Assembly (NCBI GenBank): GCA_017508195.1
Contig: JAFVZL010000050.1
Span: 1 to 54,842, forward strand
From: Clostridia bacterium
GTDB taxonomy: Bacteria > Bacillota > Clostridia > Oscillospirales > CAG-272
Direction of reading: 5' to 3'
DNA length: 54,842 nucleotides
The stretch's first letter is position 1. Each line of letters starts with the position of its first letter. Made by a program: the position numbers and the translations under genes. The notes under the pieces were generated by a model. It had not been told where the DNA came from. It was given only the letters and a program-made list of their open reading frames with translations, and made no database searches. This document shows, in pieces, positions 21,523 to 31,341 of this stretch.

Positions 21523-21548
21523 CAAGACTTTAAGGTAATCTTACAAAA

Positions 21549-21625
21549 TCTCCCTACGACGGCATTATCCGTATCAGGTTAGAGGGTTTGGCGAAAGCCA
21601 TCTCAGCCTTTAGGCACCCCTGATT
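21549..21625 (-). ncRNA. TPP riboswitch (THI element)
   Basis: The minus strand shows the conserved THI-box blocks in order: GGGGTGCC, GGCTGAGAT, then ACCTGATACGGATAATGCCG and GGGAGA. It sits between a consensus promoter and thiT, and thiamine pyrophosphate should switch the transporter off. Confidence 0.96.
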
Positions 21626-21648
21626 CTCATATTCTGTTCGGTGAGATA

Positions 21649-28094: not shown

Positions 28095-28916
28095 TTAAGA
28101 TAGCATAGCGCGGTCACTTGTAAACTCTCCGCCGCTTGCTTTAGCAAACATGCTCAAGAGCTCCTCAACCGTGAGATTCTTCTTCGCCTCGCCCGATACA
28201 TCGATAATAACTCTTCCCTCGTGCATCATAATAAGGCGGTTGCCGTGCTCGATGGCATCCTTCATATTATGAGTGATCATAAGAGTAGTTACGTTATTTT
28301 CACCAACGATTCTATCGGTGATCTCAAGCACCTTTGCCGCAGTCTTAGGATCGAGGGCGGCGGTATGCTCATCGAGAAGAAGCATCTTAGGTCTCTTCAA
28401 GGATGCCATAAGAAGCGTTACCGCCTGTCTTTGTCCGCCCGAGAGCAGACCGACCTTGCTTGTAAGCCTGTCCTCAAGACCGAGACCGAGCTCTGCAAGA
28501 CGCGCCTTATAATCCTCGCGTTCCTCACGGGATACGCCCCACTTAAGTCCGCGGAACTGTCCCTTGCGCAACGCGAGAGCCATGTTCTCATCTATCTGCA
28601 TTCCCGCAGCGGTGCCCATCATAGGGTCCTGAAAAACTCTGCCGAAATACTTTGCGCGCTTGTACTCGGGAAGATGACCTATATCCTCACCGTCAAGCAC
28701 AATAGACCCGCTGTCTACTTTGAATACACCGGTGATAGCGTTCATAAGCGTGCTCTTACCTGCTCCGTTACCGCCGATGACTGTAATAAAATCACCGTCG
28801 TTTATTGTGAGGGAAAGTCCGTTCAGAGCTATCTTTTCGTTTACCGTACCCGCATTGAAGATCTTGACGATGTTATCAAGAACAAGCATGGGACGAGCGT
28901 TATTAGCTTCACTCAT
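28095..28916 (-). CDS. ABC transporter ATP-binding protein (TrpZ-like)
   Basis: The 273-aa ATPase has Walker A GGNGAGKST, Q-loop FQDPMMG, signature LSGGQRQA, Walker B MLLLDEH with D-loop ALDPK, and switch His ITHN. It energises the importer formed with the permease and binding protein upstream. ATG 28916 overlaps the end of the permease gene and has GGAGG upstream. The TrpXYZ (ABC_sub_bind) type arrangement of three genes is seen. Confidence 0.9.
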   Translation of the reverse strand: MSEANNARPMLVLDNIVKIFNAGTVNEKIALNGLSLTINDGDFITVIGGNGAGKSTLMNAITGVFKVDSGSIVLDGEDIGHLPEYKRAKYFGRVFQDPMMGTAAGMQIDENMALALRKGQFRGLKWGVSREEREDYKARLAELGLGLEDRLTSKVGLLSGGQRQAVTLLMASLKRPKMLLLDEHTAALDPKTAAKVLEITDRIVGENNVTTLMITHNMKDAIEHGNRLIMMHEGRVIIDVSGEAKKNLTVEELLSMFAKASGGEFTSDRAMLS

Positions 28917-29874
28917 TGCTCTTCTCCTCCTTTTCCTCAGGCTTTTTCTTAAAGCGGCTGAAAAGCTTCTTAAATGCACCGACTATCTCGTTCTTATAGT
29001 TGGTGAAGGCGAGAGCCGCAATAACGATGACCGCCGACATAAGCTTAAGGTCATCCGAGGGCATACCGGAGTAGATGACGAGAGCGACGATTACTCTGTA
29101 AATGACAGAGCCAACCGCAATGCCTATCAGCTTGAAGAAGAAGCCCTTGGCACGCGCGAATAACGCCTCACCGATAATGATCGATGCAAGACCGATAACT
29201 ATCGAGCCTACTCCCATCTTAACGTCAGCATAGCCCTGATGCTGGGTAAGAAGCGAGCCTGCGACTGCAATAAGTCCGTTCGCAAGAGCAAGACCTATAA
29301 TCTTGGTGTTATCGGTGTTGATGCCCTGTGCACGGCACATCTTCTCGTTGTTACCCGTCGCTCTGATAGCGCAACCGATCTCCGTACCGAAGAACCAATA
29401 AAGCAGACCTATCGTGCCAAGCACGATGATAACACCGAAGACGAGTGTTACGTCGCGCTTCGAGAGCGGAATAATACTCCTGATAATCGCGAAAACGGTG
29501 TCATCAATATACTTAAGAAGGCTGAGGTTAGCCGTGCCGCTCGTGCCCGTGGCAATACTCATGATATGAATATTTACAGAATAAAGAGCGGTCATTGTAA
29601 GAATACCCGAAAGAATCGGGGGTATCTTCAGCTTGGTATGAAGAACACCCGTAACAGCACCTGCCAGAAGACCTGCTATAAACGCAATAACAACTGCGAG
29701 GAACGAGTTCACTCCCTGCCATATCAGCATAGCAGTAACGGCACCTCCGAGCGTCATGGATCCTTCACAGGTCATATCCGCAAAATCGAGTATACGGAAG
29801 GCAATATAGAATCCGATTGCGAGCAGCGCCCAAATAATACCCTGTCCGCAGCCCGATAGAATAATGTCGATCAT
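28909..29874 (-). CDS. ABC transporter permease (TrpY-like, BPD_transp_2)
   Basis: The 321-aa integral membrane protein has about eight to nine segments and the LivH/RbsC-type pattern IIWALLAIGFYIAFRILDFADMTCEGSMTLGGAVTA and GCAIRATGNNEKMCRAQGINTDNTKIIGLALANGLIAVAGSL, the cytoplasmic coupling region. It overlaps the ATPase gene by 8 nt and follows the binding-protein gene by 21 nt. The family is that of putative tryptophan/amino-acid importers controlled by T-boxes. Confidence 0.9.
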   Translation of the reverse strand: MIDIILSGCGQGIIWALLAIGFYIAFRILDFADMTCEGSMTLGGAVTAMLIWQGVNSFLAVVIAFIAGLLAGAVTGVLHTKLKIPPILSGILTMTALYSVNIHIMSIATGTSGTANLSLLKYIDDTVFAIIRSIIPLSKRDVTLVFGVIIVLGTIGLLYWFFGTEIGCAIRATGNNEKMCRAQGINTDNTKIIGLALANGLIAVAGSLLTQHQGYADVKMGVGSIVIGLASIIIGEALFARAKGFFFKLIGIAVGSVIYRVIVALVIYSGMPSDDLKLMSAVIVIAALAFTNYKNEIVGAFKKLFSRFKKKPEEKEEKSNE

Positions 29875-29895: not shown

Positions 29896-30942
29896 TTATT
29901 TACCGGTGTTAATGGTATGAACCGTAGCGCATCCGTTCGCGAGAACGTTATCGGTAGGTATATATATTGCATCAACGCCCGCGTTCTTAAGTGCTGTGAT
30001 AGCAGCCTCAAGATCGTTGATATCGGAAATACCCTTTTCAACGTAGGTGTAGCCCTTAGAATTGCAGTGAGGGATACCGAGAGTTCTTACCTGATATACG
30101 GAGTTGGTCTCAGCGGCAGTGTAAAGGAAGCCGATCTTAACGTCATCCTTACCGAGAAGCTCGGCAATAAGATCGAGCTGCTTCTCAACAGGGTTGATGT
30201 CGGAGATGCCCGTTACGTTTTTACCGGGAGCGGTAAGGCTTTCAACAAGACCTGCGCCGACGGGGTCGGTAACAGCGTTGAAGATAACGGGAATGTCGGT
30301 CTCGGACGCTGCGGTAACAGCCGCCTGAGAGGATGAGGTCGCGATGGTGTAGATAAGGTCTACGTTCTTAGCAACGAATGACTCGGCGATGGTAACGTTG
30401 TTGGACTCGTCGCCACTCGCGTTCTGGTCGTCAAACGAAATAGTTTTGTTAGCAGCCGCAACGCGAACGGAGAGCTGATCCTTGAAGCCCTCGTTGCTCT
30501 GATCGAGCGCATCGTGCTGAGTGAGCTGAAGAATACCTACGGTATAGTCAGCACCGCTCGATACGATAGCGGCAGTGTTACGCGTTACCCTGGTATCACT
30601 CTTCGAGCCCGCCTTATCAAGAACCGACTGAGGAATGGTGAAGCCGATCTCATCGGCAACTGCCTGGTTTACGATAAGTGCAGGGTCTGCCTCACCGCCA
30701 ACGGGAATAGTGGATGCAGCCTTGCCGTCTATAAGTATATCGGCAGCCATGTTACCTGCCGCAACGCCAAGTGCGTAGTAGTCAATACCGTAGGTTGCAA
30801 TACCGCAATCCGTGTTCATTCCCGACTCACCGCATACTACGGGGAGGGGTTTCGAGGGAGCCGAGCAGGATGCCGCGGACATAACGATGCCAACGAGCAT
30901 AAGCGCGACAAGTAGAATGGATGTAAGCTTTTTCATTTTCAA
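29896..30942 (-). CDS. ABC transporter substrate-binding lipoprotein (TrpX-like), circularly permuted
   Basis: Signal and lipobox end at Cys26 (SAASC). In ordinary TrpX/ABC_sub_bind proteins the order is VGILQLxQHDALD.., then the IYIPTDN segment, then PVVxGExG..GIATxxIDYYxLG.. at the C-terminus. Here residues 32-113 are that C-terminal segment (PLPVVCGESGMNTDCGIATYGIDYYALG), a linker covers ~114-133, and the usual N-terminal domain start (TVGILQLTQHDALD) comes only at 134. The protein ends at IYIPTDNVLANG..HTINTGK, exactly where the moved segment would continue. Frame, signal peptide, ribosome site (AAGGAG) and operon position are intact, so it could be functional. An assembly or recombination error remains possible. 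Confidence 0.88.
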   Translation of the reverse strand: MKMKKLTSILLVALMLVGIVMSAASCSAPSKPLPVVCGESGMNTDCGIATYGIDYYALGVAAGNMAADILIDGKAASTIPVGGEADPALIVNQAVADEIGFTIPQSVLDKAGSKSDTRVTRNTAAIVSSGADYTVGILQLTQHDALDQSNEGFKDQLSVRVAAANKTISFDDQNASGDESNNVTIAESFVAKNVDLIYTIATSSSQAAVTAASETDIPVIFNAVTDPVGAGLVESLTAPGKNVTGISDINPVEKQLDLIAELLGKDDVKIGFLYTAAETNSVYQVRTLGIPHCNSKGYTYVEKGISDINDLEAAITALKNAGVDAIYIPTDNVLANGCATVHTINTGK

Positions 30943-31057: not shown

Positions 31058-31341
31058 GCCCCTGCACCAATAAAGGTACAGGGACAATTCAAAACGAATC
31101 GTGTTACCACTCTGCTTCGCCTATTTCTCACGAAATAAGCCTCATAGACCTCGCCCGAGGGTTAAGGTCGCAATGATATAACGGTCACCCCCGTCGATGC
31201 CTACTATCAATTAAGAATTCAGCACGAAGCTCACAAGATGAATTCACCGCGTATGCACATCTGTCTCTCACCGACCGACAGCTCTCTGTGTATGCTTTAC
31301 TGCGACTACTGGTTCTTGCTCAAGCGCCTTTGAAAAATGAT
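31058..31341 (-). ncRNA. T-box leader, predicted Phe (UUC) specifier
   Basis: The minus strand has AGTA (31307-31310) and GGTGAGA of Stem I, a specifier loop GGTGAA-TTC-A with specifier codon TTC at 31240-31242, the T-box antiterminator AGTGGTAACACGA (about 31099-31112), and a terminator CCCTGTACC/GGTGCAGGG (31060-31083) followed by TTTTTG. The UGGU bulge would pair with an ACCA tRNA end (discriminator A), which fits tRNA-Phe and not the G73 usual for bacterial tRNA-Trp. Uncharged tRNA-Phe should turn on the importer. Confidence 0.88.

Follow-up and report, generated by a model that had tools for sequence, protein, structure and literature searches.

Evidence for an inherited circular permutation in a PF04392 substrate-binding lipoprotein of Clostridia

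An open reading frame on the minus strand of the window (the whole 54,842-nucleotide stretch of Clostridia DNA that was analysed) encodes a substrate-binding lipoprotein whose two parts stand in reversed order, raising the question of whether this is an inherited circular permutation or a wrong joining of pieces, and of whether such a protein could still serve a transporter. The sequence-only reading had proposed a circularly permuted ABC_sub_bind/TrpX-type lipoprotein and had named the order of the profile matches as one check. Profile searches bore this out: PF04392 (ABC_sub_bind) matched the window protein with 191.3 bits against a curated cut-off of 25.9, and profile positions 207-291 precede positions 2-205 on the minus strand, family membership holding for each part and not for the linear architecture. 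PF13407, the other family listed for this protein, was below its cut-off (31.9 versus 35.1). A lipoprotein signal (lipobox judged by eye) and a neighbouring permease and ATPase are present, a setting typical of PF04392 proteins. The features of the locus are as follows.

29896..30936, minus strand: circularly permuted substrate-binding lipoprotein gene, 346 amino acids, ATG start, stop included; relatives match over the full length in the same order
30865..30936, minus strand: lipoprotein signal peptide with Cys24, lipobox judged by eye
30604..30861, minus strand: C-module, PF04392 profile 207-291 (the family's usual chain end), from the profile search; holds Glu37 and Tyr53
30541..30603, minus strand: new linker of ~21 residues from old C-terminus to old N-terminus, from alignments and profile boundaries
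29914..30540, minus strand: N-module, PF04392 profile 2-205 (the family's usual chain start), from the profile search
31077..31333, minus strand: T-box leader RF00230, specifier UUC (Phe) read by eye, antiterminator UGGU
28909..29874, minus strand: ABC permease gene of the same operon, with homologues downstream in relatives
28095..28979, minus strand: ABC ATPase gene of the same operon, open reading frame as listed, true start perhaps further inside

The permuted open reading frame (29896..30942, minus strand) is intact and ends with a stop at 29896. The favoured start is the ATG at 30936, nine bases past an AAGGAG (30951-30946); the alternative TTG at 30942 would leave a gap of just three bases to that motif. 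The junctions were placed correctly by the sequence-only reading, the chain ending in VHTINTGK where the nearest normal-order gene (L067) has VHSVNMESIK followed by VPIVCGE, and its residue count was corrected to 346, two fewer, by starting at the ATG. The permease was presumptively named from its place and family likeness, and the ATPase, likewise presumptively, from its motifs.

The only strong relatives of the window protein in the PDB are CD0873 of C. difficile (6hni), SP1069 (3lft) and VC_1101 (3lkv), which belong to the same PF04392 family over both modules but have the normal order, and each match splits into two stretches. In the 6hni and 3lft alignments, query residues 132-343 correspond to the front of the chain and residues 24-103 or 28-111 to its back. 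No solved permuted relative was found in the PDB, where five further weak matches (E 0.02 to 0.6) were unconvincing. A PF04392 search of the window's own genome (draft, 88% complete) returned two matches at the permuted locus and none elsewhere; a normal-order copy was accordingly not found in this draft.

The same order recurs in related genomes. Matches in this order were found in 5 of the 69 genomes of the genus sample, all full-length and in a single frame, and in 16 of the 395 genomes of the family sample, the window's own genome included in both counts; the family matches, obtained with the window protein as query at E 1e-60, comprise 15 intact genes and one frameshifted gene (G316) and come from 10 of 71 genera. 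Outside the family, no permuted gene was detected in samples at order level (4 genomes of 394 matching, all of the window's family), class level (1 of 391, the genome itself) or phylum level (2 of 398, the genome itself and G989), these three samples overlapping, covering part of the species and being searched at E 1e-60 with at most five candidates scored per genome. G989 was rejected as a permuted carrier, as its match consists of two neighbouring genes of normal order. The named genomes contain 368 places that encode relatives, and of the best 80 of these 368 the first 18 are permuted (17 intact and one frameshifted) and the other 62 are not. The 18 carriers in this named set divide into 13 'Clostridia bacterium' bins, recovered from the gut of roe deer, water deer, sheep and water buffalo, two with the label Oscillospiraceae and three under other names. 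After removal of duplicates there are 20 distinct intact permuted proteins, the window's and 19 others; one of 21 copies is frameshifted (L048/L066). The L048/L066 frameshift pattern is shared between G316, of the window's family, and a record named Candidatus Colimorpha enterica, placed in the Bacteroidota by NCBI, whose name or bin may be wrong.

An assembly or binning artefact, with pieces joined in the wrong order, might be suspected from the window genome being a draft of 54 contigs and from all 18 named permuted loci coming from metagenome bins, with no isolate among them. Against this stand the 20 distinct same-order proteins recovered across the genus, family and named-genome searches, the 60-69% identity of 17 aligned relatives (alignment A2) to the window protein, the different naming styles of the records (NODE, idba, RGIG, UBA), the presence of 5 of the 18 named loci on contigs >100 kb, and the purifying selection seen across both modules (below). 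Assembly error was therefore rejected, its probability being practically negligible.

In a quick tree of 114 proteins, built from separate alignments of the two modules that were then joined in a uniform order, the 20 permuted proteins form one clade (SH-aLRT 97, both modules) adjoined by the normal-order gene L067 (support 89). L067, from the uncultured Clostridia bin SRR5666654_bin.1, is 59% and 58% identical to the window protein in the N- and C-modules, respectively, and has the same order of binding protein, permease and ATPase genes as the window; it differs in its normal module order, and a T-box was not found there at E 0.01. In trees of 45 of these 114 rows, the permuted clade is supported at 98/98 by the N-module alone and at 69/91 by the C-module alone. 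The N-module tree places the permuted genes in a group with L067, L068 and L069 (96/92), the nearest of the three not being resolved; the C-module tree, built on 78 columns only, leaves the window's own row unresolved. A single origin of the permutation, which has so far been observed in one Clostridia family, is suggested by these trees, the N part arguing well for it and the C part weakly. A chimera of two unrelated paralogues is not favoured, as both module trees group the permuted genes with L067, L068 and L069, with the caveat that the C-module tree does not resolve the branching of these three and the permuted group.

Selection was estimated for seven close pairs, of which six were usable; the seventh was saturated, and many dS values exceed 1, near saturation. 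dN/dS was 0.064-0.116 in the C-module, 0.020-0.119 in the N-module and 0.104-0.250 in the linker, where it was above both modules in 4 of the 6 pairs. These ratios indicate that both modules are under purifying selection. The one frameshifted copy among 21 is what a decaying, non-functional rearranged gene might leave behind; such a gene would not be expected to show dN/dS well below 1 in both modules and 20 intact copies, nor to keep Cys24, the pocket residues, the operon and the T-box, and decay is very improbable. The permuted gene is also kept in its operon: of the intact loci with sufficient flanking sequence, 17 of 17 have a permease and an ATPase gene downstream of it (the frameshifted L066 was left out of this count, as its contig ends too soon). 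The L067 permease is 56.7% identical to the window's, inside the 48-68% range of the permuted loci, and because it is as similar as the permeases of permuted loci are, docking on the permease has probably changed little.

Control of the operon and conservation of pocket residues both point to an aromatic ligand. The window T-box matches RF00230 with 99.4 bits against a gathering threshold of 93, and T-boxes lie upstream in 14 of 19 permuted loci, seven over the Rfam threshold and seven more below it at E <=0.01; none was found at E 0.01 for the other five (L039, L041, L042, L044, L048). Specifier triplets were read by eye from cmscan alignments: UUC (Phe) in 7 of the 14 (L001, which is the window, L002, L033, L036, L037, L045, L046) and UAC (Tyr) in the other 7 (L031, L032, L035, L038, L040, L043, L047). 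By this reading the specifier alternates between UUC and UAC among close relatives, inside one transporter clade. All 14 T-boxes carry the antiterminator UGGU, which suits a tRNA ending in A73-CCA; tRNA-Phe and tRNA-Tyr have A73, and tRNA-Trp has G73. Two other RNA matches were seen: a sub-threshold match to Vibrio RNA AS7 at L045:3892-4011 (44.9 bits versus 90), probably due to chance, and a TPP riboswitch in the window at 21534-21631, minus strand (76.3 bits).

In CD0873, Glu263 contacts the hydroxyl of tyrosine and Tyr279 hinders tryptophan, according to PMC6816091. The 6hni alignment places Glu263, Tyr279 and Pro236 of CD0873 at Glu37, Tyr53 and Pro327 of the window protein (published number = chain position + 21, as worked out from the construct in PMC6816091), the two selectivity residues, Glu and Tyr, being shared. 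All three residues are invariant in 18 aligned permuted proteins, as is Cys24, which is followed by a spacer of ~6 residues after the signal peptide. Glu37 and Tyr53 are in the moved C-module and Pro327 is in the N-module; a working pocket would therefore need both modules together, and the conservation of the three residues suggests that the pocket forms. Tryptophan is not favoured as the ligand: no UGG specifier was read by eye among the 14 T-boxes, and the position of Gln284 in SP1069 (PMC6816091) is Tyr in the window protein. The TrpX-like family assignment of the sequence-only reading was upheld, but the T-box specifiers and pocket residues indicate Phe or Tyr as the ligand and not Trp. 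TrpX of Streptococcus suis is likewise an aromatic amino-acid binding protein encoded behind a T-box; it differs in belonging to a tryptophan system, and the start of the abstract of PMC9382623 makes no mention of permutation.

The window protein is most likely a working subunit of a predicted Phe/Tyr importer. In it, the lipoprotein signal leads into what are the last ~85 residues of the family chain, ~21 linker residues connect the former termini, and the chain ends where the moved part once began. The two pieces would fold into the usual two-lobed protein, which would catch Phe or Tyr between its lobes and pass it on to the products of the neighbouring permease and ATPase genes, and the operon would be regulated through its T-box by uncharged tRNA-Phe or tRNA-Tyr. 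As a whole, it is very probable that the locus encodes a class I PF04392 lipoprotein whose circular permutation is genuine and inherited, which is predicted to work as a Phe/Tyr importer subunit and which is likely to have arisen by way of tandem copies.

The permutation also affects the lipid anchor, which precedes the N-module in normal relatives and lies ~six residues before the Glu37 segment in the window protein. In class I folds the N-module starts the first lobe, and the segment equivalent to the Glu37 stretch is a strand of the second lobe. If this holds for the Glu37 segment here, the tether would have moved to the other lobe. It could then be supposed that the moved anchor alters how the protein faces the membrane, and that the protein functions in a changed job, as a sensor or slower scavenger and not as an ordinary importer subunit. 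The closeness of Cys24 to the moved segment fits this, as do the 7 of 19 permuted-gene genomes that also hold one or two normal-order PF04392 genes. The remaining 12 of 19 show no other PF04392 gene (a provisional count from drafts 55-96% complete), however, and the retention of permease and ATPase genes downstream, with no sign of a partner change in the permease identities, makes a changed job unlikely and agrees with an importer subunit.

A natural permutation of a lipid-anchored class I binding protein has a precedent in Tp0684 (TpMglB-2) of Treponema pallidum, for which PMC4990184 reports a crystal structure (PDB 5JX2), glucose binding with a change of shape, and function in vitro. Its authors proposed the name 'Type Ic / Cluster Bc', raised a possible adaptation to membrane anchoring, noted relatives in Gram-positive bacteria, many of them of the gut, and left open whether the permuted part originated from another gene. 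The remark of the sequence-only reading that such permutations are rare holds, and a first of its kind is excluded by this published case (PMC4990184). The window protein resembles Tp0684 in being circularly permuted, but Tp0684 is of a sugar-binding family and has the first three N-lobe strands at its C-terminus, whereas the window protein has its last ~85 residues at the N-terminus, an unbroken N-module (profile 2-205, a test on sequence only) and two modules that both match PF04392. By these comparisons it is permuted like Tp0684 but is not a member of its group, with another family and another cut. Among the literature matches listed, Tp0684 was the only natural permuted class I binding protein and no permuted PF04392 protein was found; PMC8007473 contains both 'PF04392' and 'permut', and a word search of PMC12667903, on a permutation-finding method, for six binding-protein terms found none present. 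A permuted imelysin-like protein of Bacteroides ovatus (PMC3143127) is likewise a natural permutation, uptake-related, restricted to one bacterial group and with normal-order relatives nearby; it differs in its unrelated, all-helical fold, which PMC3143127 contrasts with periplasmic binding proteins.

The window protein may represent a second natural class I permutation with a different cut, one in which the anchor has left the start of the first lobe for a strand of the second lobe, next to the ligand. Taken with Tp0684, this would suggest that lipid-anchored binding proteins have repeatedly been given new ends so that the tether pulls at a less harmful place, the geometry of anchoring being what is selected, a possibility that we put forward tentatively. 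Others may be missed, as a linear profile search returns a protein of this kind as two partial matches. The locus also marks a natural permutation point in the PF04392 family, which is useful for sensor design.

The sequence-only reading had further suggested tandem duplication with loss of both outer parts, a route made plausible by the neighbouring copies of normal order that relatives contain. Adjacent normal-order pairs were found in 18 loci (L070-L079, L082, L086, L096, L103, L111, L112, L116, L129), a number that is no fair frequency, as the permuted query favours tandem-pair loci in the ranking; in addition, a pair in L081 is cut by the contig end, and the two copies of L106 stand about 4 kb apart. 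The conserved second copies of L072, L081 and L116 fall within a 31-row group that includes the permuted clade (support 83), and the first copies of L072, L073 and L116 are on a long branch. The permuted proteins stop a few residues short of the point at which normal relatives start the moved part. Their linker ends in SGAD[FY]TVGI or a similar stretch, which resembles the residues after the lipobox of normal relatives, xxAD[YF]xVGI (a short likeness). The architecture thus fits an SP1-C1-N2 product of a tandem pair SP1-N1-C1-SP2-N2-C2, in which the front of the first copy, the join between the two and the back of the second would have been lost. No partly reduced tandem intermediate was seen, the tandem pairs found being of normal order and outside the permuted clade. 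A remnant of the lost back part has no room downstream in the window, where 21 bases separate the stop from the permease start, and none was recognised in the ~365-base gap before the permease gene of L061, the gaps of other loci having been searched by tblastn only. Much of that L061 gap is filled by 10.4 copies of a 21-base repeat (L061:6030-6250) that begins at the stop of the permuted gene.

The permutation could instead have arisen by one excision of the tail segment and its re-insertion behind the signal peptide, which concerns the origin only and is compatible with the rest of the explanation preferred here. In its favour, the cuts at both ends are clean, and a tandem intermediate was seen in none of the genomes of the permuted clade; the adjacent pairs in 18 loci and the grouping of conserved second copies with the permuted clade speak against it, as does the linker end, which is as expected if the front of a second copy was fused in. 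A single excision and re-insertion is on this evidence somewhat improbable. The permuted clade can be compared with its closest normal-order gene and with the tandem pairs, which makes both the duplication-and-loss route and the idea that the tether shapes chain order directly testable. Two patterns were observed among the tandem pairs themselves. In L072 (74-1147), L073 and L116 (4098-5243) the first copy is strongly diverged (~25% identity in the N part), carries extra stretches and adjoins a conserved second copy. In genomes of Selenomonas and Centipeda (L070, L071, L074-L077, L079, L112) the two adjacent normal-order copies each form their own cross-species clade.
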